64,000 nucleotides of DNA from Natronorubrum aibiense (GTDB taxonomy: Archaea > Halobacteriota > Halobacteria > Halobacteriales > Natrialbaceae), in NCBI RefSeq assembly GCF_009392895.1, contig NZ_CP045491.1:1-64000 (forward strand), written 5' to 3'. Positions 12,554-27,341 of this stretch are shown here, piece after piece. A program made the position numbers and the translations under genes. The notes beneath the pieces were generated by a model. That model did not search any database and was not told the origin of the DNA. It worked only from the letters and a program-made list of their open reading frames with translations. Positions within the stretch are counted from its first letter, which is position 1; the number at the start of each line of letters is the position of its first letter.

Positions 12554-13678
12554 ATGGAGCTTACCCACGAACAGCAGCTCATCCAAGATACGGTGCAGGA
12601 GTTCGTCGAAAACGAGGTCGGTGCCGACGTTCACGATGCCGACGAAAAGCAGAAATTCCCGGAAGACGTCTGGGATGGGCTCGCGGAACTGGACTTTACC
12701 GGCATGACGGTGCCCGAGGAGTACGGCGGTCTCGACGTCGACGAACTCACCTACAGCATCATCAACGAGGAACTCGCCTACGGCCACCTCGCCGTCGCGA
12801 CGGCGCTGTCGGTCCACTGTCTCGCGACGTCGTGTATCCGCCAGTTCGGCTCCGAAGCGCACAAAGAAGAGTGGCTGCCGGAGATGGCCCGTGGCCGACC
12901 CGTCGGTGCGTTCGCCCTCTCAGAACCCGACGCCGGCTCGAACCCTGCTGAGATGTCGACCGAAGCCCGACTCGAGGGCGACGAGTACGTCATCAACGGC
13001 AAGAAACAGTGGATCACGAACGGTGAGCGTGCAGGCGTCGTCATCCTGTTCGCCAAGACCGATCGCGACGACCCCGACACCGTCACCCAGTTCCTCGTGC
13101 CGAAAGACGTCGAAGGCCTCGAGGTCGGCAAGAAAGAGGACAAACTCGGCCTCCGAGCGAGCGACACGACGACGCTCATCTTCGACGATGTCCGAATTCC
13201 GGCCGAAAACCGCCTGACTGAGGTCGGTCGCGGACTCAAAGCCGCGTTCTCGATCCTGACTGGCGGCCGCGTGGCGATCGCGAGTCAGGCGGTCGGCGTC
13301 GCACAGGCTGCCCTCGACGACTCGGTCCAGTACGCGAACGAACGCGAGCAGTTTGGCCAACCGATCATCGAACACCAGGCGATCAGCCAGAAACTCGCCG
13401 ACATGCAGACAGACGTCCAGGCAGCGCGCCTGCTGACTCGTGATGCTGCGCGGAAAAACGAGGATGGCGTCGCAGCGAAGGCCGCGGCGATGGCGAAGTA
13501 CTTCGCCAGCGAGACGGCCGTCGACGTAGCGAACGAGGCCGTCCAGATCCACGGCGGCTACGGCTACACCAAAGACTTCGACGTCGAGCGCTACTACCGC
13601 GACGCCAAGATCACGACGATCTACGAAGGAACGTCCGAGATCCAGAAAAAGATCATCGCCCGCCACCTCAAACAGTAG
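12554..13678 (+). CDS. Acyl-CoA dehydrogenase
   Basis: 374-residue FAD-dependent enzyme doing the first step of beta-oxidation. It has the family blocks FALSEPDAGSNPAEM, GKKQWITNGE, IHGGYGYTKDF and TTIYEGTSEIQKKIIARHL; the Glu in YEGT is the catalytic base in this family. GAGGT directly precedes ATG 12554. The gene is divergent from the CoA transferase and close to the 3-hydroxyacyl-CoA dehydrogenase. Confidence 0.95.
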   Translation: MELTHEQQLIQDTVQEFVENEVGADVHDADEKQKFPEDVWDGLAELDFTGMTVPEEYGGLDVDELTYSIINEELAYGHLAVATALSVHCLATSCIRQFGSEAHKEEWLPEMARGRPVGAFALSEPDAGSNPAEMSTEARLEGDEYVINGKKQWITNGERAGVVILFAKTDRDDPDTVTQFLVPKDVEGLEVGKKEDKLGLRASDTTTLIFDDVRIPAENRLTEVGRGLKAAFSILTGGRVAIASQAVGVAQAALDDSVQYANEREQFGQPIIEHQAISQKLADMQTDVQAARLLTRDAARKNEDGVAAKAAAMAKYFASETAVDVANEAVQIHGGYGYTKDFDVERYYRDAKITTIYEGTSEIQKKIIARHLKQ

Positions 13679-14715: not shown

Positions 14716-15885
14716 ATGTCGAAGGCATTCGTCGCCGGAACAGGGATGACTGCGTTCGGAACGTTCCCCGATCGGAGAGGGAGAGATATGTTTGCAGAAG
14801 CCGGGCTCGCTGCGCTCGACGATGCCGGGCTTGGCCCTGAGGACATCGACGAGGTGTTTTACGGCAACTTCATCGGGACGCTTGCGGAAAATCAGGGCCA
14901 TCAGGGACCGCTGGCAGCCGAAGCACTGGGTACGACCGCCCCGTCTAGGCGGGTCGAAAGCGCGTGTGCCTCGAGTGGCCTCGCGATTCGAGATGCAGTC
15001 CGTGCGGTCCGAAGCGGCGAGGCAGATGTCGTCGTCGCGGGTGGAATGGAACGGATGAGCAACATGGGAACTGCTGGAGCGACCGACGGATTGGCCCGTG
15101 CCGCCGACGATCTCTTCGAGATTCGATCCGGCGTCACGTTCCCCGCAGCGTACGCGTTGATGGCACGAGCGTACTTCGACGAGTTCGGCGGCGATCGTGA
15201 AGATCTCGCTCACATTGCCGTCAAGAATCACGACAACGCACTCGTCAACGACCACGCCCACCTCCAAGAGGAGATCACCGTCGACGACGTCCTCGAGTCA
15301 CCAGAAATCGCGGCCCCGCTCACGCTGTACGACGCCTGTCCGATCAGTGACGGCGCAGCCGCACTCGTCTTGCTGTCGCCCTCCTACGCCGAGGAACACG
15401 GTCTCGACAGTGGCGTTGCGATCACGGGCTCGGGCCACGGCGGCGATACAATGGCTCTGCAGGATCGCCAGTCGCTCGCAACGGCCCCAGCGACACGCGA
15501 CGCTGCCGAGGAGGCCTACGACGACGCGGGAATCAGCCCTGACGACGTCGGCTTCGTCGAAGTCCACGACTGCTTTACGATCGCCGAAGTGCTCGCCCTC
15601 GAAGGCCTCGGCCTCTACAGCTACGGGGAAGGGATCGGCGCGGCCCGACGCGGCGAGACGCGCCGCGACGGCGACCTCCCAGTGAACCTCTCGGGTGGAC
15701 TCAAAGCGAAGGGTCACCCCGTCGGCGCAACCGGCGCAGCACAGGTCGCAGCCGTCAGCAATCTGCTTACCGGCATTCATCCACGAGCCGATGCCGTCAG
15801 CGAGGATGTCACCGTCGGCCTCGCACACAACGCGGGTGGGACGGTTGCCAGTGCAGCCGTGCACGTTCTGGAGGTGACACGATGA
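14716..15885 (+). CDS. Thiolase family protein (SCP-x type)
   Basis: 389 residues. The nucleophilic cysteine is in VESACASSGLAIRD, and GHPVGATGAAQ with VEVHDCFTIAE give the catalytic histidines. The style is that of archaeal and SCP-x thiolases, which need a DUF35 partner. The next gene encodes such a protein and overlaps by 4 nt (ATGA). It would cleave a 3-ketoacyl-CoA or run the reverse condensation. Confidence 0.92.
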   Translation: MSKAFVAGTGMTAFGTFPDRRGRDMFAEAGLAALDDAGLGPEDIDEVFYGNFIGTLAENQGHQGPLAAEALGTTAPSRRVESACASSGLAIRDAVRAVRSGEADVVVAGGMERMSNMGTAGATDGLARAADDLFEIRSGVTFPAAYALMARAYFDEFGGDREDLAHIAVKNHDNALVNDHAHLQEEITVDDVLESPEIAAPLTLYDACPISDGAAALVLLSPSYAEEHGLDSGVAITGSGHGGDTMALQDRQSLATAPATRDAAEEAYDDAGISPDDVGFVEVHDCFTIAEVLALEGLGLYSYGEGIGAARRGETRRDGDLPVNLSGGLKAKGHPVGATGAAQVAAVSNLLTGIHPRADAVSEDVTVGLAHNAGGTVASAAVHVLEVTR

Positions 15886-16268
15886 CGGACACACAGGATG
15901 GGTGCTACGACGCGTTCCTCGACGCACTCGAGGCCAGCGACGGCTACTACTACGAGTGTGCGGATGGTCACGCGCTGGTCCCACCCCGACGTGTCTGTCC
16001 ACACTGCGGTGACCGAGAGTTAGAGCGGGTGGAACTGCCTGAAACGGGTTCGATCGTCACCCACACGACTGTCGCCGTTCCAACGCCGCAGTTCGAAGAC
16101 GATGCGCCGTACGTCACGGCGATCGCGACGTTCGGACAGGCCAAACTGACCGGTATCCTTCGAGACGTCGATCCGAACGACGTCGAAATCGGGCAGGAAG
16201 TCACCGTCACCGTCGACACAGCCGAAACCACTGGCGATCGGACGATCACGTTTGACCGACACAGCTAG
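15882..16268 (+). CDS. Zn-ribbon OB-fold protein (DUF35), thiolase partner
   Basis: 128 residues. The N-terminal zinc ribbon uses C of YECADGHALVPP and CPHC, followed by an OB-fold with AIATFGQAKLTGIL. DUF35 proteins form complexes with archaeal thiolases and channel CoA esters between active sites. The start overlaps the thiolase stop by 4 nt, and a thioesterase gene follows 4 bp after its stop, so the three form one operon. Confidence 0.92.
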   Translation: MTDTQDGCYDAFLDALEASDGYYYECADGHALVPPRRVCPHCGDRELERVELPETGSIVTHTTVAVPTPQFEDDAPYVTAIATFGQAKLTGILRDVDPNDVEIGQEVTVTVDTAETTGDRTITFDRHS

Positions 16269-16878: not shown

Positions 16879-18513
16879 CTAGCTGTGTTTTTCTTGCTCC
16901 TGCTGGCGAAGCTCGACGCGGCGGATCTTGCCACTCGAGGTCTTGGGGAGTTCGTCGACGAACTCGATCCGGCGGGGGTATTTGTACGGAGCCGTCTCCT
17001 CTTTCATGAACTCCTGCAGTTCGACCTTGAGGTCGTCGCTGCCCTCGTAGCCCTCGGCGAGGATGACGTAGGTTTTGACGACGCTGCCACGTTCGTCGTG
17101 TGGGCTGTCGACGGCGGCTGCCTCGGCGACGGCGTCGTGGCTGACGAGTGCGTCTTCGACTTCGAATGGGCCGATGCGGTATCCGGAGGAGATGATGATG
17201 TCGTCGGCGCGGCCTTCGAAGAAGAAGTAGCCGTCTTCGTCCTGAGAGGCCAAGTCACCGGTACGGTAGTACTCACCCGAGAGTTTCTGCTCGTCGAGTT
17301 CCGGTTTTTCGTAGTAGCCGTCGAAGATCGCTGGGGAGTCGACCGGCACCGCGATCTCGCCGATCTCGCCGGTTTCAACCTCTTCTTCCTCGTCGACCTC
17401 GATGATCGTCGCCCCGACGCCGGGGGTTGGTTTCCCCATGCTGCCGGTCTTGACGTCGATGCCCGGGTAGTTCGTCACGAGTGCGACCGTCTCGGTCTGG
17501 CCGTAGCCGTCGCGTGGCGTGACGCCCCACGCGTCCTGAATGCGCTCGATCGGCTCGCGGTTGAGTGGTTCGCCCGCCGACAGCGTGTCGTTCAACTGGA
17601 CGTCGTAGTCGTCGAGGTCGGCGTTCGCGAACATCCGGTACTGGGTCGGGACCGCACAGAGTTTCGTGACGCCTTCGTCCTCGAGGATCTGGAGGAACGT
17701 CTCCGGTTCGAAGTCGCCATCGTAGATCAACTGCGTCGCGCCCGTCGTCAGTCCGACACCGATCGGACTCCAGAACCACTTGGCCCAGCCGGTGCCGGTC
17801 GTCGCCCACAGCAGTTCCTCCTCGAGATCGGTGTCTTCGTCGACGCCCCACCAGTACGGCGCGTTGATCTGATTGAAGCAGTACTGCCAGCGGTGTTTGT
17901 GTAGGACTGGCTTCGGCTGACCGGTCGTTCCGCTGGTATAATTGATCGACATCGGGTCCTCGGCCGCGAGATCAGGACCATCGTAGTCGGTCGACTGCCC
18001 GTCCATCACCGACTGGAACGTCGTCCAACGATCGTCGTCGAGCGCGTCCTCGTCACCCTCGAGAACGATCACGCGCTCGAGTGGCGTCTCCTCGAGTACG
18101 GGTTCGACCATGTCGGTGAGCGACTCGTGGACGACGATTGTCGTCGCGTTACAGTCGTTCGCACGGAACTCGATATCTTTTGCTCGCAGCATCGACGAAC
18201 ACGGGACCAACAACGAGCCAGTCGCGAGTGCACCGAGCTGGATCACGAACGTGTCTGGATGCCGCGGGAGCAAGTGCATGGTCCGGTCGCCCTTGCCGAC
18301 ACCCAGTTCCTCGAGGCCGTTTGCAAATTGGTTCATCCCGTCGCGAAGGTCGGCGTAGGTTCGTTCCTCCCGATGGCCGTCGTCGCTCAGAAAGTGAACG
18401 GCGACTCGGTCGCCGAACGACGCCGCGTGGTCGGCGACGGTCGACGTGACCGTATACGATTCCGGAATATTCCATTCGAACTCCTCGACTATGGTATCGT
18501 AATCCACACCCAT
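16879..18513 (-). CDS. AMP-forming acyl-CoA synthetase
   Basis: 544-residue adenylate-forming ligase activating a carboxylic acid with ATP and CoA. It carries NYTSGTTGQPKPVLHKH (P-loop), DGYGQTE, YRTGDLA, YRIGPFEVEDAL and the C-terminal catalytic lysine in KTSSGKIRRVEL. The style is that of medium-chain or benzoate-type ligases. ATG 18513 is chosen because relatives begin just before the YDTIVEEFEW block. It converges with the thioesterase operon and would supply its CoA esters. Confidence 0.92.
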   Translation of the reverse strand: MGVDYDTIVEEFEWNIPESYTVTSTVADHAASFGDRVAVHFLSDDGHREERTYADLRDGMNQFANGLEELGVGKGDRTMHLLPRHPDTFVIQLGALATGSLLVPCSSMLRAKDIEFRANDCNATTIVVHESLTDMVEPVLEETPLERVIVLEGDEDALDDDRWTTFQSVMDGQSTDYDGPDLAAEDPMSINYTSGTTGQPKPVLHKHRWQYCFNQINAPYWWGVDEDTDLEEELLWATTGTGWAKWFWSPIGVGLTTGATQLIYDGDFEPETFLQILEDEGVTKLCAVPTQYRMFANADLDDYDVQLNDTLSAGEPLNREPIERIQDAWGVTPRDGYGQTETVALVTNYPGIDVKTGSMGKPTPGVGATIIEVDEEEEVETGEIGEIAVPVDSPAIFDGYYEKPELDEQKLSGEYYRTGDLASQDEDGYFFFEGRADDIIISSGYRIGPFEVEDALVSHDAVAEAAAVDSPHDERGSVVKTYVILAEGYEGSDDLKVELQEFMKEETAPYKYPRRIEFVDELPKTSSGKIRRVELRQQEQEKHS

Positions 18514-18695
18514 ACTCGACCAATCATACCATGCCTGCTTTAATGTTTTGCTGCTTCCAGCGTTCGTACCGGTGTCAACGGATATATCCGTTGGGTCCGG
18601 AATCAGCCGATTTGCCACCGATAGCGAGTCTCGGTTTTAGGTAGAGTCGAATGCCTCGTGGGAACTCTTAACAGTGTATACACCACTACTCGAGT

Positions 18696-19580
18696 ATGGA
18701 CACGAGCAAGCAACTCTACGAACTCGAGGCCACGGGCTGGAAGCGAGGGCTGTATGACGACGTCAAACGGACGTTCCGCGCGCCGATCGTCAACTGGATC
18801 TTCCGAACGACGATCGCGAACTACCCCGAGTTCGTTCGGTACGCATGGGGGCAGGTGAAACCGGCGTTCGAGACCGCTCGCTTCGGCCAGTTTTCGGTTA
18901 CGTATCGCGATACCGTTCTCTCGGCGGTTTCGGCGGACACATCGATTCCGACCTATCGCTGTGACGAACTCGAAGTATCCCCGTCCGAATACGGTGAACT
19001 TCGCGGCCAACTCGAGACGTACGATATCGTCGCCCCGCGCCTCGCCGTCCTCTTCGAACTCGTCGACAGAGCGCTGTCCGAGAAACCGATCGGCACTGAG
19101 CCCGATCGAACTCGAGCAGCGACCGCACCGTTGCCCGCCTGGCTCGATGCCGATCGAGGGCGGCCGCCGACGATGGTCGCGTTCGACGAGTCGCCGGCGG
19201 AACTGGCCGACGTTGTCGACGGGATCCAGTCGTTTCACGGTCTCGAGGACGGCCTGCCGAGTATCTACCGGACAGTTGCCCAGTGGCCCGGATATTTACT
19301 CCCGATGTGGAACGATCTCGAACCGGTGCTCCGCAGTGACGGGTTCTCGACGGCGGTCGATGACGGTCGCGCAGTCGTCACCGAGTACGTGGACTCACTC
19401 GCTTACACGCCACAACTCGGCCCCGACGCGCTCGCACAGCAGGGCCTCGACGAATCGGCGATCGACGAACTTCAGGATCTGTTCAGGGAGTTCAATCAGG
19501 GTGTGATCGAGACCGTCATCCCAGCGCTGCCGGTGTACGCAACGACGGTCGACGCCGTCGGCAGCCGCTCGCTCGAGTAA
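18696..19580 (+). CDS. DehI-family 2-haloacid dehalogenase homologue
   Basis: 294 residues resembling the DehI (class I 2-haloacid dehalogenase) family, which hydrolyses D- and L-2-haloacids by direct attack of water and forms a pseudo-duplicated helical fold. The two repeat halves are visible: an RTTIANYPEFVRYAWGQVKP block near the start and a YRTVAQWPGYLLPMWNDLEP block near residue 190. A DUF2204-like or simply DehI-like role without dehalogenation is also possible. The next gene encodes a class II homologue. Confidence 0.82.
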   Translation: MDTSKQLYELEATGWKRGLYDDVKRTFRAPIVNWIFRTTIANYPEFVRYAWGQVKPAFETARFGQFSVTYRDTVLSAVSADTSIPTYRCDELEVSPSEYGELRGQLETYDIVAPRLAVLFELVDRALSEKPIGTEPDRTRAATAPLPAWLDADRGRPPTMVAFDESPAELADVVDGIQSFHGLEDGLPSIYRTVAQWPGYLLPMWNDLEPVLRSDGFSTAVDDGRAVVTEYVDSLAYTPQLGPDALAQQGLDESAIDELQDLFREFNQGVIETVIPALPVYATTVDAVGSRSLE

Positions 19581-19629
19581 GCGAGCGGAGGTTCATATTT
19601 CGTCGCAGCCGTGTGAAATTCACCCATAG

Positions 19630-19635
19630 TATATT
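19630..19635 (+). promoter_or_regulatory. TATA-like box of the HAD dehalogenase gene
   Basis: TATATT centred about 29 nt before ATG 19661, the spacing of leaderless haloarchaeal transcripts. It suggests the HAD gene has its own promoter even though the DehI-like gene lies just upstream on the same strand. Confidence 0.45.
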
Positions 19636-19660
19636 GCCAGTGCGAGCGAACAATGCTCGT

Positions 19661-20350
19661 ATGTCATTCGATCCAACCGCCGTCGAAACGATCACCGTCG
19701 ACTCGTATGGGACCCTCGTCGATCCGGCTGCCGTTGAACGAACACTCGAGACACACGTCGACGACGAACACGTCCAGTCGGTATCCAACCAGTGGCGTAG
19801 TCGCTCACTGATGTACACGATGGTGAGTAACTTCACCGACAGCTACCAACCGTTTTACGACATGAACCGCGATGCGCTACGAGTTGCGCTCGCAGGCCAC
19901 GGCGTCGACCTCGACTCGGAGACGATCGAGGAAATCCTCGCTTCGTACCACGATCTCGATCCGTTCGAGGACGTCCGCAGCGGACTCGCAGCGATAGCCG
20001 ACGCCGGGTACGACGTCTTCGTGGTCTCGAACGGCAATCCAGACATGCTCGAGTCGATGGTCGAGACGGCTGATCTCGAGTCAGTACTGTCGGGCACGAT
20101 CAGTGCGGACGAGATTCGGACGTTCAAACCCGATAGCGAGATCTATCGACACGCGGCGGCACGAACGGGGACGCCGATCGAGTCGATCGCCCATGTCGCT
20201 GGGCCGACCTTCGACGTGCAGGGGGCGATGCACGCGGGCATGCAGGGGGTCTGGATCAATCGAACGGGTGGTATCTGGGATCCGTTCGCGGACGAGCCGA
20301 ATCTGACGATCAAAACGTTCGACGAGTTAGCAGTCGAACTCGGCGTATAG
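19661..20350 (+). CDS. Haloacid dehalogenase type II (HAD superfamily)
   Basis: 229 residues. The HAD nucleophile is the Asp in TVDSYGTLVDP; QWRSRSLMYT, VSNGNP and FKPDSEIY match the class II haloacid dehalogenase pattern (Arg, Ser-Asn, Lys and Tyr). The segment before the last catalytic Asp reads HVAGPTFDVQGA, so two residues that are Ser and Asn in the characterised Pseudomonas enzyme, as I recall it, are Ala and Pro here. True L-2-haloacid dehalogenase activity is therefore plausible, not certain. ATG 19661 fits a TATA box at -29. Confidence 0.85.
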   Translation: MSFDPTAVETITVDSYGTLVDPAAVERTLETHVDDEHVQSVSNQWRSRSLMYTMVSNFTDSYQPFYDMNRDALRVALAGHGVDLDSETIEEILASYHDLDPFEDVRSGLAAIADAGYDVFVVSNGNPDMLESMVETADLESVLSGTISADEIRTFKPDSEIYRHAAARTGTPIESIAHVAGPTFDVQGAMHAGMQGVWINRTGGIWDPFADEPNLTIKTFDELAVELGV

Positions 20351-20531
20351 CGTCGCTCACGTCTCGTTACGATCGTCTTCCGAGCAAGCAGTATCCGTCA
20401 TTCTGCACGTACTGCGCAATCGTCAATGATTTTATAATAAATATTCTTTAAATTATTGGTCTCGGCGGGAATGACGTATTCACACCGCCGTATTCAAGTA
20501 GTCGCGAACCATAATTCGACATACATAACAA

Positions 20532-20557
20532 TTTAATACTTGCAATATGACGGAGAG
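20532..20557 (+). promoter_or_regulatory. Promoter and Shine-Dalgarno of the symporter operon
   Basis: TTTAATA at 20532-20538 lies about 29 nt before ATG 20564, and CGGAGAG at 20551-20557 gives a Shine-Dalgarno six bases before it. The preceding ~200 bp is AT-rich and otherwise empty. Confidence 0.45.
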
Positions 20558-20563
20558 TAGTGT

Positions 20564-20866
20564 ATGCAGACTCATACCAAGGAAGCGCTGGCATCATTGA
20601 CTGCAGCGGTAGCACTCATTGGTGTCATACACGCGGGGATCTGGTTCACGATGTTCGGGACCCCCGATTTGACCGTGTTGGGGTTCCCGTTCCACTACTT
20701 TTGGTTAGTGGCGGGTGGGCCAGTGGCGATGTTCGTCCTGTACTGGGTGTACTACCAGTACATCACGTCGTCCATTATGGAAGAGAAACGGCAGCTGAAG
20801 GCGTCTGCAGGTGGCGTTGGAGCACCTGACGATATCGGCGCAAAAGCGGGTGATGACGATGATTGA
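20564..20866 (+). CDS. Small two-helix membrane protein, symporter subunit
   Basis: 100 residues with two hydrophobic helices (~10-32 and ~40-65) and a charged tail. FPFHYFWLVAGGPVAMFVLY resembles the small membrane proteins (DUF3311 or DUF4212 type) encoded before sodium:solute symporters. It overlaps the symporter start by 14 nt, so it is probably co-translated and part of the transporter. Confidence 0.8.
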   Translation: MQTHTKEALASLTAAVALIGVIHAGIWFTMFGTPDLTVLGFPFHYFWLVAGGPVAMFVLYWVYYQYITSSIMEEKRQLKASAGGVGAPDDIGAKAGDDDD

Positions 20867-22529
20867 GCCGCTGGCACTCCAGCAAACGGGGGAGTACCCG
20901 TTTCAGGAGACGTTCACCGACCTCGTGATCCCGATCGGGATCATCGTCGTGATGTTTCTCGTGTTCTACGGGATCAGTTACTACATGAAAAGCAACATCC
21001 AGGGCAGCGACGACTACATGGTCGCTGGACGGACCATCGGCCCATTCGTCAACGGGTCTGCGGTCTCAGCTACCTGGGAAAGTTTAGCGACGTTCATGGG
21101 TGTCGTCGCACTGATGGTCCAAGTCCAGATTCCGTTCCTGGCAGTGTGGACTAACTTCCTGCTGTCGATCCCACTGATCGTCATTCTGTACGGCCAGACG
21201 CTACGCCGACTCGGCTCGTACACGCCGGCGACGTTCTGTAAGGATCGCTACGGCAACACGATGTCAGTCGTGATGGCGCTGCTCATCGTGTTCGTCATGT
21301 TGATGTACGCCCTCGGTCAGTTCATCGGGCTGGCACAGGTCGCCGAGATTCTGTTCGGGTGGGACTACACGCTCTCACTGTTCGTCATCGCCGTGTTGGT
21401 TACCGGATACGTCGTGATCGCCGGGATGTGGGGTGTGTCGTACAACTCCGCCCTGCAGTTCTGGATCATGCTCACCGCCGCGTTCATCCCGATGATGTTC
21501 GTTCTGAATCAACTCGGTTCGTCCGGTTGGTACTTCCCACCGCTTGGTTACGGTGACCTCGTGCCGGAAATGCAACAGACGAATCCCGGCTTCTTCGACA
21601 TGACGTTCGATACGCGGTGGTACTTCGCGATGTTTCTGGCGATGGCGCTGGGGCCGATCGGGATGCCCCACCTCGCCCAGCGGATCTTTACCAGCCGCAG
21701 CGTCGAAGCCGGGCGGAAAACCGTCTTCTGGTTCGTCCTCGTGACGGGCCTGATGTTCGCGACGATCTACTCCGTCGCGTTCGCCGGCGTCTACTGGCTC
21801 GGGCAAGAAGGGTTCGAAGTCGCCGAAGCCGACTTCGACAAAATGATCTTCTACCTGAACTTCGCGTTCAACGGTGATTCGATCACCGGCTACGTCGTCG
21901 CCGGTGCAATCGCGGGCGGACTCTCGACCGTCAGCGGTCACATGCTCGCGATCAGCGCCGCGGTCGCAAACGACGTCATCGAAGCTTTCGAACTCGAGGT
22001 CACCGAAGATCGCAAGACACAGTTCGGCTACGCCGCCGTCATCGCGTCCGGACTGATCGTTGCCCTGATCGCACTCAGTCCGCCGGCGTTCCTCGTCGTC
22101 AGTATCCTCTGGGCGTTCGCCATCAGTGCCGCAGCGATCACCCCCGTGATCGTCCTCGGCGTCTGGTCCGCCCGCGTGAACCGATACGGTGCACTCGCCT
22201 CGAGTGCCGTCGGCTTTCTGACCGTCCTCGTACTCTCGCCGCACGCGTTCGGCAGCATCGGTGCCGGAGCCGAGGGACTCACGGCACAGCTCGGTATCGA
22301 CGCGATCATGATCGCGTTCCCGCTGTCGATCCTGACGTTCGTCGTCGTCTCACTGATTGCGGAACGCGTCGGCTCGCTGAACGTCGATCCGGAATCGAAC
22401 CGCAACCTGATCAACGAAATGCACGGCTACCCTGACGACGACGTCGACCGCTTTACCAGCGCGACGCCGCTGATCGTCCTCGCTGTGTTGATGCTGCCGA
22501 TCCTCTGGTGGGGCATACAACCCTGGTAG
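20853..22529 (+). CDS. Sodium:solute symporter family transporter
   Basis: 558 residues with about 13 hydrophobic segments. The SSS landmarks are SDDYMVAGRTIGPFVNGSA, ATWESLATFMG and MPHLAQRIFTSRS, with SGHMLAISAAVANDV in the distal half. Members of this group import monocarboxylates such as acetate, lactate or haloacids with sodium. ATG 20853 overlaps the small subunit gene by 14 nt. The neighbouring dehalogenase genes and acid-catabolism cluster point to an organic acid as substrate. Confidence 0.93.
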   Translation: MTMIEPLALQQTGEYPFQETFTDLVIPIGIIVVMFLVFYGISYYMKSNIQGSDDYMVAGRTIGPFVNGSAVSATWESLATFMGVVALMVQVQIPFLAVWTNFLLSIPLIVILYGQTLRRLGSYTPATFCKDRYGNTMSVVMALLIVFVMLMYALGQFIGLAQVAEILFGWDYTLSLFVIAVLVTGYVVIAGMWGVSYNSALQFWIMLTAAFIPMMFVLNQLGSSGWYFPPLGYGDLVPEMQQTNPGFFDMTFDTRWYFAMFLAMALGPIGMPHLAQRIFTSRSVEAGRKTVFWFVLVTGLMFATIYSVAFAGVYWLGQEGFEVAEADFDKMIFYLNFAFNGDSITGYVVAGAIAGGLSTVSGHMLAISAAVANDVIEAFELEVTEDRKTQFGYAAVIASGLIVALIALSPPAFLVVSILWAFAISAAAITPVIVLGVWSARVNRYGALASSAVGFLTVLVLSPHAFGSIGAGAEGLTAQLGIDAIMIAFPLSILTFVVVSLIAERVGSLNVDPESNRNLINEMHGYPDDDVDRFTSATPLIVLAVLMLPILWWGIQPW

Positions 22530-22552
22530 CCTGTTCAAGCCTCTCATAGTAT

Positions 22553-22717
22553 ATGCAGCTCTTTGGCTCCAAACTCGGAACGGTGGCGTGGCTGCTCATC
22601 GGCGCTGGAACGGCCGCACTCGCGGTCTACAACGATAACCAGCTGACGGCACTCATCGCCGTCGGCTGGGTCACTCTCGCCGTGTTCAGCTGGGCCGAGT
22701 ATCGAAAAGACGACTGA
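22553..22717 (+). CDS. 54-residue membrane microprotein downstream of the symporter
   Basis: A short ATG-started frame 23 bp after the symporter stop encodes a protein with two hydrophobic stretches (VAWLLIGAGTAALAV and LIAVGWVTLAVFSW) and a charged end, AEYRKDD. Codon use and composition match the coding DNA around it. It could be a further small subunit of the transporter. Confidence 0.6.
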   Translation: MQLFGSKLGTVAWLLIGAGTAALAVYNDNQLTALIAVGWVTLAVFSWAEYRKDD

Positions 22718-22874: not shown

Positions 22875-23318
22875 TTACTGTTCGTCCAATAACACGGTGA
22901 CCGGCCGTGTCGACTCGAGCAGCACCGACTGGGTGACGCTCCCGAACAGCATTTTCCCGGCGGCACTCTTCTTTCGACCGCTCATGATGATGTTGTCGGC
23001 GTCGATCTCGTCGGCGACAGCGAGAATCTGCTCGATGATGTCACCTCGTTCCAGTCGCGTTTCCACCTCGACCCCAGCGTCGGCAAGCAGTTCGTACGCG
23101 ACGGTCGTGCTGTCGGGGAGTTCCGGCTCAGCTCGCCCTTCGTCCCGTTGTGATTCGAACTCCTGTAACCAGGGTTGCTTGGTGGAGGCGGACACGTTCA
23201 GTAGGATGACCGCTTTCTCCGACGGCTCACCGGGAAGGTCCCTGACGATCTCTGCCGCTCGTTTTGCCCGTGTTTCGCTCTCATCGATCGGGAGCAAAAT
23301 CGTGTGCATAGGTGACAC
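22875..23318 (-). CDS. Universal stress protein (UspA family)
   Basis: 147 residues with the ATP-binding pattern of UspA: TILLPIDESE at the N-terminus, then DNIIMSGRKKSAAGKMLFG and SVTQSVLLESTRPVTVLL, which fit G-2X-G-9X-G(S/T). It probably acts in stress adaptation or as a small regulator. It converges with the symporter operon and diverges from the mutase gene. Confidence 0.9.
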   Translation of the reverse strand: MSPMHTILLPIDESETRAKRAAEIVRDLPGEPSEKAVILLNVSASTKQPWLQEFESQRDEGRAEPELPDSTTVAYELLADAGVEVETRLERGDIIEQILAVADEIDADNIIMSGRKKSAAGKMLFGSVTQSVLLESTRPVTVLLDEQ

Positions 23319-23479
23319 TCGAGTTACCGTTACTTAATCATTTGGGCGACCGACAGCCGTCCGTGACCGACCCCGAGTCAGATCGCACAGATCAGCAGCC
23401 GGATACGTCGAGGTATGTGATTGATTCTCCAGTAAACCGATAACAAGACTTTAGAATATTGGCACTCATGGTCATACCA

Positions 23480-25180
23480 ATGTTCGACAAAAACGAGCTC
23501 GAGGGGATTCGCGAGCAACAGGACCAGTGGGAAGAAGAGACACGTGATCCCGTGCTCGAGCGCCACGGGGAACGGAAAGACCGCTTTGCGACGATTTCGA
23601 ACCACGAAGTCGATCGGCTCTACACACCGGATGACATCGCCGATCTCGATTTCGAAGACGATCTCGGATTTCCCGGTGAGCCACCGTACACGCGCGGCCC
23701 GTATCCGACGATGTACCGCGGACGGACGTGGACGATGCGGCAGTTCGCCGGCTTCGGCACGGCTGAAGAGACCAACGAGCGCTTTCATTACCTGATCGAC
23801 GAGGGCCAAACCGGTCTCTCGACGGCCTTCGACATGCCGTCGCTGATGGGGATCGACTCGGACCATCCGATGAGCGAAGGCGAAGTCGGCAAAGAGGGCG
23901 TCGCCGTCGACACGCTCGCCGATATGGAGGTTCTCTTCGACGGGATCGATATCGGCGAAGTCTCGACGTCGTTCACGATCAACCCGTCGGCGGCCGTCAT
24001 CTACGCGATGTATATCGCCCTGGCCGACCAGCAGGGCGTTCCTCGGGATAAAGTGCGCGGCACGCTCCAGAACGACATGCTCAAAGAGTTCATCGCTCAG
24101 AAGGAGTGGGTGATTCCGCCGAGTCCCTCGCTGAAGATCGTCACCGACACGATCGAGTTCGCCGTCGACGAGACGCCGAAGTTCCACCCCGTCTCCATCT
24201 CGGGCTATCACATCCGCGAAGCCGGCTCGACGGCTGCCCAAGAGGCCGCTTTCACACTCGCTGACGGCTTCGCCTACGTCGAGGACTGTCTCGACCGCGG
24301 CCTCGACGTCGACGACTTCGCTCCCCTCCTCTCGTTTTTCTTCAACTCCCACAACTCCATTTTCGAAGAGATCGCCAAGTTCCGCGCCTCCCGCCGCGTG
24401 TACGCCCGCGTAATGGAAGACTGGTACGGTGCCGAACAGCCCGAATCGAAACGGCTGAAGTTCCACACCCAGACGGCCGGGCAGTCGCTGACCGCCCAGC
24501 AGCCGCTGAACAACATCGCTCGTGTCACCATTCAGGCACTCGCGGGCGTCCTCGGTGGCACGCAGTCGCTGCACACGAACAGCTTCGACGAAGCGCTGGC
24601 GCTACCAAGCGAGAAGGCAGTCCGTGTCGCACTGCGAACCCAACAAATCATCGCCGACGAATCCGGCGCGGCCGATATCGTCGACCCGATGGGCGGCAGC
24701 TACGCCATCGAAAAACTCACCAACGAGATGGAAGCCGAGATCATGGGCTACATCGAGGAGATCAAAGAGATCGGCGACGGCTCCGTCCGCGACGGCGTCC
24801 TCGACGGCATCGATCAGGGCTACTTCCAGCGCGAAATTCAGGAGTCGAGCTACGAGTACCAACAGCGCGTCGAACGCGGCGAGGAGGTCGTCGTCGGCGT
24901 CAACAAATACACCATCGAGGAGGACACCTCCCCAGAGATCCTCCAGATCGACGAAACGACGCGCGACCGCCAACTCGAGCGACTCGAGCGGGTCAAAGAC
25001 GAGCGTGACGACGAGGAAGTCGAGGCCACCCTCGAGGCGCTGTCGGATGCGATCGACTCCGAGGAGAACGTCATGCCGTACATCATCGACGCCGTCAAAG
25101 CCTACGTGACGATGGGCGAGATCATGCAAGTCTTCGAAGACCACCACGGCGCCTACCAAGAAGAGCTCAGTCCTGTCTAA
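23480..25180 (+). CDS. Acyl-CoA (methylmalonyl-CoA) mutase large subunit
   Basis: 566-residue substrate-binding TIM-barrel subunit of a B12-dependent acyl-CoA mutase. YPTMYRGRTWTMRQFAGFG includes the active-site Tyr, and SISGYHIREAG carries the His that contacts substrate. Where classical methylmalonyl-CoA mutase has Arg (in VRNTY), this protein reads AQKEW with Gln, as isobutyryl-type mutases do. Methylmalonyl-CoA to succinyl-CoA is still the most likely reaction. ATG 23480 is preferred to ATG 23468. The B12-binding subunit and MeaB are encoded 0.7 kb downstream. Confidence 0.92.
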   Translation: MFDKNELEGIREQQDQWEEETRDPVLERHGERKDRFATISNHEVDRLYTPDDIADLDFEDDLGFPGEPPYTRGPYPTMYRGRTWTMRQFAGFGTAEETNERFHYLIDEGQTGLSTAFDMPSLMGIDSDHPMSEGEVGKEGVAVDTLADMEVLFDGIDIGEVSTSFTINPSAAVIYAMYIALADQQGVPRDKVRGTLQNDMLKEFIAQKEWVIPPSPSLKIVTDTIEFAVDETPKFHPVSISGYHIREAGSTAAQEAAFTLADGFAYVEDCLDRGLDVDDFAPLLSFFFNSHNSIFEEIAKFRASRRVYARVMEDWYGAEQPESKRLKFHTQTAGQSLTAQQPLNNIARVTIQALAGVLGGTQSLHTNSFDEALALPSEKAVRVALRTQQIIADESGAADIVDPMGGSYAIEKLTNEMEAEIMGYIEEIKEIGDGSVRDGVLDGIDQGYFQREIQESSYEYQQRVERGEEVVVGVNKYTIEEDTSPEILQIDETTRDRQLERLERVKDERDDEEVEATLEALSDAIDSEENVMPYIIDAVKAYVTMGEIMQVFEDHHGAYQEELSPV

Positions 25181-25213
25181 TCCAGCGTTGCATTCGCCCC
25201 TGTAGTCGCCGCG

Positions 25214-25723
25214 CTACTCGCTTGCCGTGTCTTCGGGCTCGAGCACGTACGTACACTCCGTATACGTCTCCTCACCGATCGTGATCGGTTCCGTTGTGGC
25301 CTGTTCGAAGCCGAACCCGCGGTAGAACGCGTTCCCCGGCTCGTTGGCCTCGAGAACCATCGCGTTGAGCCGCTCGACGCCCTGCTCGACCAACCGATCG
25401 CGTGTCGCCTCGAGTAACTGCCGACCGAGGCCCTCGTTGCGATGGTCCGGCGCGACGTAGACCCGGAGAATGTTCCCTTCGTTGTCGTCGGGGTCCCAGA
25501 CAGCGTGGGCAAAGCCAACGACCTCGTCGTCACGTTCGGCGACCAGCATGAGTGCGCGCGACCAGATAATCGAGTCTCGAACGAGGTCGTCCGAGTACCA
25601 CTCGTCGAATCCTTCCTGAATTGATTCCCGGCTCAGGATATCCGGGTAGTCTTCGGTCCACGAGGAGCGGGCGACGTGTTGGATCGCATTGACATCATCG
25701 GGGGTGGCAGCGCGTACTGTCAT
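25214..25723 (-). CDS. GNAT-family N-acetyltransferase
   Basis: 169 residues. The acetyl-CoA-binding motif is RVYVAPDHRNEGLGRQLL, preceded by VVGFAHAV and followed by NEPGNAFYRGFGF. The substrate is unknown. It lies on the opposite strand between the two mutase subunit genes, so it interrupts that locus without belonging to it. Confidence 0.9.
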   Translation of the reverse strand: MTVRAATPDDVNAIQHVARSSWTEDYPDILSRESIQEGFDEWYSDDLVRDSIIWSRALMLVAERDDEVVGFAHAVWDPDDNEGNILRVYVAPDHRNEGLGRQLLEATRDRLVEQGVERLNAMVLEANEPGNAFYRGFGFEQATTEPITIGEETYTECTYVLEPEDTASE

Positions 25724-25836
25724 ATGCTGACAAGCACCTATGTCGAATTAACATTTGTGCCCCGCAGACGTATGCGTGGGGACGACGCACCACGAATTTC
25801 GATAGAATCATACCCCCTCCAGCGAAACGCGAATGT

Positions 25837-26253
25837 ATGAGTGCTGACAGCGAACAGCGGAGTATCCGTTGTATGGTAGCGAAAGTAGGACTCGACGGCC
25901 ACGACCGTGGCGCACACGTGATTGCCCGTGCGTTCCGTGATGCCGGTTTCGAAGTCATCTACTCCGGTCTGCACAAATCCCCCGACGACGTCGTGCAGGC
26001 AGCCGTCCAAGAGGACGTCGACGTTCTCGGCATCTCGATTCTCTCGGGCGCTCACGACACGCTCGTCCCGAAAATCATGGACGGCCTCGATGAGTACGGT
26101 GCGAAAGCGGATACGCTCGTCCTCGCCGGCGGCGTTATTCCAGAGGAAGACCGAGCGGAACTCAAAGACGAGGGCGTCGCAGCGATCTTCGGCCCCGGAA
26201 CGTCGATCGAAGAGACGATCGACTTCGTCCGCGAGAACGCGCCCGAGCGATGA
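25837..26253 (+). CDS. Mutase small subunit, B12-binding domain
   Basis: 138 residues. The cobalamin-binding signature is KVGLDGHDRGAHVIA (DxHxxG), with VDVLGISILSGAH and VLAGGVIP following. In archaea the B12-binding domain is a separate chain that pairs with the large subunit encoded upstream. The stop overlaps the meaB start by 4 nt. Confidence 0.95.
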   Translation: MSADSEQRSIRCMVAKVGLDGHDRGAHVIARAFRDAGFEVIYSGLHKSPDDVVQAAVQEDVDVLGISILSGAHDTLVPKIMDGLDEYGAKADTLVLAGGVIPEEDRAELKDEGVAAIFGPGTSIEETIDFVRENAPER

Positions 26254-27341
26254 CCGCCGACACCGACCGACTGCTCGAGGACCTGCTCGAGGGCGACCAC
26301 CGTGCACTGGCGCGGGTTATCACGAAGATCGAAAACCGATCGCCGGGGTACCGAGAGCTCGTGTCGGCGCTGCACACCCACACTGGCAGTGCGGACGTGA
26401 TCGGCATCACCGGCTCGCCCGGCGCAGGTAAGTCGACGCTCGTCGACAAGATCGCAAAGACCTACCGCGACCGCGGACAGACCGTCGGCGTCATCGCCAT
26501 CGACCCGTCCTCGCCGTTCAGCGGCGGCTCCGTGCTGGGTGACCGCATTCGGATGGCCTCGACCGTCGGCGACATGGACGTCTTCTTCCGCTCGATGTCC
26601 GCCCGTGGCTCACTCGGCGGCCTCTCGACGGCGACAACCGACGCCGTGCGCGCACTCGACGCCTTCGGCAAGGACAAGATCATCATCGAAACCGTCGGGG
26701 CCGGACAGAACGAAGTCGACATCGTCAAAACCGCCGACACAGTCGCGGTCCTCGTTCCGCCGGGTGGCGGCGACGACATCCAGATGCTCAAAGCCGGCAT
26801 TCTCGAGATCGCCGACGTCTTCGTCGTCAACAAGGCGGACATGGATGGCGCGGATATGACCGTCAAAGAGCTCCGGGAGATGGTCACGATGGACGACCCG
26901 ACGCCGCTGGCGGGCCACCACGGCCCGGACGAAACGGCGTCGTTCGGCGAATCCGACGATGCGACCGCCGACTCCGCCGCCGAGACGTGGACGCCACCGA
27001 TCATCGAGACGATCGCGACCAGCGGCGAGGGCGTCGCCGACTTCCTCGACACCATCGACGACCACGTGACGTGGCTCGAAGACACCGGCGAGCGAGCAGC
27101 TCAGGAGCGCACCCGCTACGCCGACGAGATTCGGACGCTCTTTCGCGAAGATACATCCGCACTGCTCGAGGCCGAACTCGAGGCCCGCGGCGGCCTCGAC
27201 ACCTACGTCGATTCGGTCGTCGACGCCGAGACGGACCCGTACACGGTCGCTGCCGAGTTCCTGGAGCCACTCGAGGCGTGTCTTCAAGAGCAGTCGCTGG
27301 CGTCGGAGCCGAATGAATCGACCGTAAAACGCGCCGAGTAG
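26250..27341 (+). CDS. meaB: Mutase-associated GTPase MeaB
   Basis: 363-residue G3E P-loop GTPase that loads and protects adenosylcobalamin in the mutase. It has GITGSPGAGKSTLVDKIA (Walker A), VIAIDPSSPFSGGSVLGDR (switch), IIIETVGAGQNEVDIV and the NKAD base-recognition motif. It overlaps the B12-binding subunit by 4 nt, which fits coupled synthesis. Confidence 0.95.
   Translation: MTADTDRLLEDLLEGDHRALARVITKIENRSPGYRELVSALHTHTGSADVIGITGSPGAGKSTLVDKIAKTYRDRGQTVGVIAIDPSSPFSGGSVLGDRIRMASTVGDMDVFFRSMSARGSLGGLSTATTDAVRALDAFGKDKIIIETVGAGQNEVDIVKTADTVAVLVPPGGGDDIQMLKAGILEIADVFVVNKADMDGADMTVKELREMVTMDDPTPLAGHHGPDETASFGESDDATADSAAETWTPPIIETIATSGEGVADFLDTIDDHVTWLEDTGERAAQERTRYADEIRTLFREDTSALLEAELEARGGLDTYVDSVVDAETDPYTVAAEFLEPLEACLQEQSLASEPNESTVKRAE

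Follow-up and report, generated by a model that had tools for sequence, protein, structure and literature searches.

The segment described here lies in a 64,000-nt window, the whole stretch of DNA that was analysed, which covers positions 1-64,000 of contig NZ_CP045491.1 of Natronorubrum aibiense (contig 207 kb, genome 4.35 Mb). The nearest named relatives belong to the genus Natronorubrum; N. bangense carries the same genes on a 214-kb plasmid. Five genes that an initial annotation had placed between positions 18696 and 22717 are present at or near those coordinates and belong to the families named there. All are on the forward strand and encode a DehI-fold protein of 294 aa (18696-19580; identified by PF10778, a structure model, structure matching and a residue table), a class II HAD hydrolase of 229 aa (19661-20350; TIGR01428, alignments to PDB chains and a residue table), a small membrane protein of 100 aa (20564-20866), a sodium:solute symporter of 556 aa (20859-22529) and a conserved membrane microprotein of 54 aa (22553-22717). 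Divergent from the DehI gene is a reverse-strand gene for an AMP-binding acyl-CoA synthetase (16879-18618), whose true start probably lies some 35 codons into the ORF. A flanking β-oxidation set on the forward strand includes an acyl-CoA dehydrogenase (12554-13678; NCBIfam matches and conserved synteny) and a thiolase with a DUF35-type partner (14716-16268; an NCBIfam match for the thiolase, and synteny). Beyond the microprotein lie a reverse-strand gene resembling universal stress proteins (22878-23318), which is in a conserved block, has syntenic matches and has a pHTUR01 orthologue annotated as a universal stress protein, and then three forward-strand genes: the large subunit of a B12-dependent acyl-CoA mutase (23459-25180, start approximate; TIGR00641, 736 bits), the B12-binding small subunit (25837-26253; TIGR00640, 176.8 bits) and a MeaB-type GTPase chaperone of the mutase (26250-27341; TIGR00750, 330.8 bits, above cut-off). 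Further out are acyl-CoA dehydrogenases, a hydroxyacyl-CoA dehydrogenase, a thiolase, a hydratase and a CoA transferase. Acid-catabolism genes had been proposed on both sides, and this was supported, with the synthetase and β-oxidation set on one side and the mutase on the other.

The synthetase and mutase are separated by 4.8 kb in the window. In genomes G104, G084, G012, G075 and G060 the same two genes are neighbours, with only about 0.1-0.3 kb between the matches and none of the intervening genes, and in G035 and G037 the small membrane protein, symporter and microprotein (the symporter trio) are present with a crotonase gene in place of DehI and HAD, between the synthetase and the trio (crotonase loci L154:11267-12043 in G037 and L153 in G035). 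We read the segment as an insert, a cassette of about 4.8 kb that sits between two divergent genes in a conserved haloarchaeal locus predicted to serve short-chain, probably branched, fatty acids. Its gene order, with the synthetase divergent from DehI, HAD, small membrane protein, symporter and microprotein, recurs in nine Natrialbaceae genomes including that of the window and, outside the family, in one MAG, Tc-Br11, where a crotonase gene is added. In a second layout, found at eight loci in two other genera, HAD and DehI stand divergently and alone. Also outside the family, the symporter trio, HAD, DehI and the mutase are grouped in a different way in G275, and a related symporter lies beside HAD and DehI in G404.

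Among all families, NF047394 (MbcS) gave the best match to the synthetase (581 bits, below the cut-off of 850), and the best PDB match was 3etc (MacsMa; 329.8 bits). Both 2-methylbutyrate and isobutyrate are activated by MbcS, but acetate is not (PMC10026030), and MacsMa prefers 2-methylbutyrate (PMC10455477). The mutase large subunit reads RQF...AQ (RQFAGF, AQKEW) in every cassette locus, and a chromosomal mutase paralogue (L151) reads RQY...ARN, with Tyr and Arg. Phe and Gln at the positions of Tyr89 and Arg207 of methylmalonyl-CoA mutase are what we take to mark isobutyryl-CoA mutase, and by this signature the flanking mutase would be of the isobutyryl-CoA type. It shares separate large and small subunits and a MeaB partner with both isobutyryl-CoA and 2-hydroxyisobutyryl-CoA mutases, and Phe and Gln at the substrate positions with the former; it differs from both in being archaeal. 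Although the nearest PDB chain of the large subunit is the 2-hydroxyisobutyryl-CoA mutase 4r3u, that identity was rejected: where this enzyme has its characteristic Ile90 and Asp117, the flanking mutase has Phe and Ala. Methylmalonyl-CoA mutase was likewise rejected on the signature residues, and the chromosomal paralogue fits that role better. A relative of the mutase was found in 123 of 125 genomes of the family (E 1e-200), with Phe in the 18 extra loci inspected; since it is nearly universal in the family, the cassette is an addition to an older pathway. The Phe/Gln mutase (window 23459-27341; L173-L219) is found in almost every Natrialbaceae genome sampled, alongside another mutase of methylmalonyl type. 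Isobutyryl-CoA mutase was described in 2010 as known only from bacteria (PMC2847961), and searches of the literature for haloarchaeal haloacid dehalogenases, for "halocarboxylic acid dehydrogenase" and for a haloarchaeal isobutyryl-CoA mutase found nothing on point.

The symporter matches the Pfam SSF family (PF00474, 145.7 bits) and falls below every curated subfamily cut-off, reaching 178 bits against 320.75 for TIGR03648 and scoring far below those of the ActP and MctC models. The small membrane protein gene overlaps the symporter start and precedes the symporter in all cassette loci; its DUF4212 match is weak (19.1 bits, below cut-off), and its product is probably the small subunit of the symporter. 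The microprotein follows the symporter in all cassette loci, with 50-87% identity. Like the two-gene SSS monocarboxylate symporters (the VC_2705 family, ActP and MctC), the trio combines an SSF domain with a small membrane protein encoded ahead of it, and it adds the 54-aa membrane protein. The proposed role as an importer of short acids is plausible. When upstream regions from 12 loci were compared, a TATA-like element on the forward strand, TTTAATA (20532-20538), was found about 26 bp before the ATG of the small-subunit gene and was kept across the cassette loci, even where HAD is deleted; weaker TATA-like stretches lie upstream of DehI and of HAD. Since the small gene has its own conserved element, the symporter trio is probably a transcription unit separate from DehI-HAD and may be expressed apart from it.

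The DehI-like protein scores 114.3 bits against Pfam DehI (PF10778; cut-off 28.9). Its AlphaFold model (pLDDT 91.1) superimposes on HadD (5h00) over 275 residues at 2.8 Å with a Z score of 26.8, and DehI-type PDB entries give Z scores of 23.7-26.8 against 3.9 for the next unrelated chain; in the model, then, the DehI fold is kept across the whole protein. Full-length fold, length and the equivalents of Ser204 and Thr76 are shared with the group I dehalogenases (DehI of P. putida PP3, HadD AJ1 and DL-DEX Mb), but the equivalents of Asp205, Asn131, Trp48 and Tyr134 are all replaced. In HMM and MAFFT alignments the catalytic Asp (Asp189 of DehI, Asp205 of HadD) corresponds to Ile190, and Ala113, Ile31 and Leu116 stand at the positions of HadD Asn131, Trp48 and Tyr134. 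Across 65 distinct haloarchaeal homologues the Asp205 position is Ile in 54, Val in 10 and a gap in one; Trp48 is replaced by Ile, Val, Phe or Leu, Asn131 mostly by Ala, and Tyr134 by Leu in all 65. All four residues are kept in each of the bacterial comparators, a set of four proteins only. In HadD, Asp205 and Asn131 activate water, and activity is abolished by Asp205Asn and reduced by about 96% by Asn131Asp (PMC5780510). The haloarchaeal proteins instead have an invariant set of Arg28, Asn33, Arg37, Asp110, Arg115, His181, Arg192, Gln196 and Trp197, and these common polar residues indicate a constrained family rather than decay. Judged by its residues, the DehI-like protein most likely lacks dehalogenation activity, and its ligand or substrate is most likely some other small acid or derivative, handled by means of this different invariant set.

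The HAD protein exceeds the curated cut-off for "haloacid dehalogenase type II" (NCBIfam TIGR01428, 159.9 bits against 125.4), and its similarity to solved HADs is strong in sequence, with a structure model that is poor (pLDDT 60.8). It retains Asp14, Thr18, Arg46, Ser123, Asn124, Lys156, Tyr162 and Asp185, the equivalents of the Asp10 nucleophile, Thr14, Arg41, Ser118, Asn119, Lys151, Tyr157 and Asp180 of the class II L-2-haloacid dehalogenases L-DEX YL, DehIVa and DhlB; the nucleophile, Arg, Ser, Lys, Tyr and the Asn119 and Asp180 equivalents also occur in almost all members of a set of 34 haloarchaeal relatives. The protein departs from the L-DEX YL type at Ser175 and Asn177, whose equivalents are Ala180 and Pro182 in a loop reading VAGPTFD, and none of the 34 relatives has Asn at the latter position. 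Replacement of Ser175 or Asn177 in L-DEX YL significantly lowers activity (Kurihara et al., cited in the review PMC4899344). With the covalent-Asp machinery kept, the protein probably hydrolyses a small 2-substituted acid. Two of the nine genomes with the first layout have a damaged HAD gene: in N. halalkaliphilum about 30 codons from its start are left, and in Natronococcus sp. A-GB7 an in-frame TAG interrupts it. The rest of the cassette is intact at both loci (L118:7877-8300 and L031:8101-8853). An α/β hydrolase near the HAD/DehI pair in Natrinema- and Haloterrigena-type genomes (L034:3955-4806) distantly resembles haloalkane dehalogenases, scoring 112 bits where the cut-off is 241.

It could be argued that HAD alone works as a 2-haloacid dehalogenase, forming an ester on Asp14 and passing the halide to Arg46 and Asn124 as in L-DEX, and that the DehI-like protein has some other role. 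The retention of the residues named above in nearly all of the relatives and the TIGR01428 score speak for this possibility, as does the activity of the L-specific enzyme DehL in spite of its having no Asn177 and lacking other residues (PMC4899344). We nevertheless regard it as unlikely, given that the Ser175 and Asn177 equivalents are lost together and that HAD has disappeared twice from otherwise intact cassettes, which makes it dispensable. Moreover, the VAGP(T/S/A)F loop is found only in DehI-linked HADs, those outside the second layout, which suggests a special substrate.

Among 125 genomes of the family, 19 have DehI, which is broken in one of these, and 83 have HAD relatives. HAD adjoins DehI at 16 of the 19 intact DehI loci, and the HAD-linked loci show three gene orders. 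In a tree built from 63 DehI proteins, five changes are required to explain the HAD link, and supported branches force at least two of these. Values of dN/dS against orthologues are 0.04-0.29 for all five genes (about 0.11-0.18 for DehI and HAD, below 0.3 for the microprotein), and all five are under purifying selection. Because HAD is the direct neighbour at so many loci and in several gene orders, with low dN/dS in five genes, the linkage is not attributable to chance. The co-occurrence on which the initial annotation had staked its proposal was thus borne out in other haloarchaea. Most DehI genes outside the family stand alone, and no constant neighbours were found for the stand-alone haloarchaeal genes. 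OsmC genes are neighbours at two such loci, a plasmid-borne DehI gene of Haladaptatus caseinilyticus comes after a cobalamin biosynthesis cluster (L172:1-8882), and the broken DehI gene (G056; L042:8926-9299) has an intact HAD gene about 3 kb away. The solitary state of most haloarchaeal DehI genes, together with the deletion and the stop codon in the two broken HAD genes, would suit the idea that the DehI-like and HAD-like genes are passengers that moved with the symporter and share no function; however, the dN/dS values of both genes, and an adjacency that occurs in at least three gene orders and has at least two gains or losses on the DehI tree, make this still less likely. The least likely explanation is the one first put forward, namely that both enzymes hydrolyse symporter-imported 2-haloacids to hydroxyacids for the flanking pathways, which the family names, the cut-offs and the conserved linkage of DehI, HAD and symporter would favour but which is weakened because the catalytic Asp, Asn, Trp and Tyr of DehI are absent clade-wide, the HAD set is incomplete without its Ser175 and Asn177 equivalents, and the flanking genes suit branched fatty acids and fit isobutyrate- or butyrate-type acids.

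The explanation we favour, at a probability somewhat above even (about 0.55) and with substrates and reactions that we infer throughout, is that a short and probably branched acid is taken up with Na+, activated and broken down through isobutyryl-CoA and butyryl-CoA, and that the DehI-like and HAD-like proteins are accessories with an altered or different chemistry. The symporter and its small subunit would import the acid with Na+, and the synthetase, by homology to MbcS and MacsMa, would form the CoA ester. Isobutyryl-CoA would then be converted to butyryl-CoA by the B12 mutase, as its signature predicts, and butyryl-CoA would be degraded by the flanking acyl-CoA dehydrogenase, hydratase, hydroxyacyl-CoA dehydrogenase and thiolase. 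The DehI-like protein, which has the DehI fold and not the water-activating Asp/Asn pair, would serve another role with a small acid, and HAD would act as a dispensable hydrolase of a small 2-substituted acid. Several points count against this explanation: HAD scores above the curated type II dehalogenase cut-off, the synthetase scores below the curated MbcS cut-off, the Phe/Gln rule for the mutase comes from alignment and from general background on these enzymes, and dehalogenation might conceivably proceed by residues other than the known catalytic set.

A more specific and tentative proposal, which we rate as possible but short of probable, is that the haloarchaeal DehI-fold proteins have a rebuilt active site with a chemistry other than dehalogenation, and act together with a specialised HAD hydrolase as part of an archaeal pathway for isobutyrate/2-methylbutyrate in which a B12-dependent isobutyryl-CoA mutase is a step. 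DehI homologues occur in 25 of the 86 haloarchaeal genera searched, and the residue comparison suggests that the public annotation "haloacid dehalogenase" is misleading as a DehI label for the sampled haloarchaeal members. If this proposal is true, a fold known only from dehalogenation would gain a second use, an archaeal isobutyryl-CoA mutase would be a notable addition, and haloarchaea would possess a route for short branched acids that can be put to the test.
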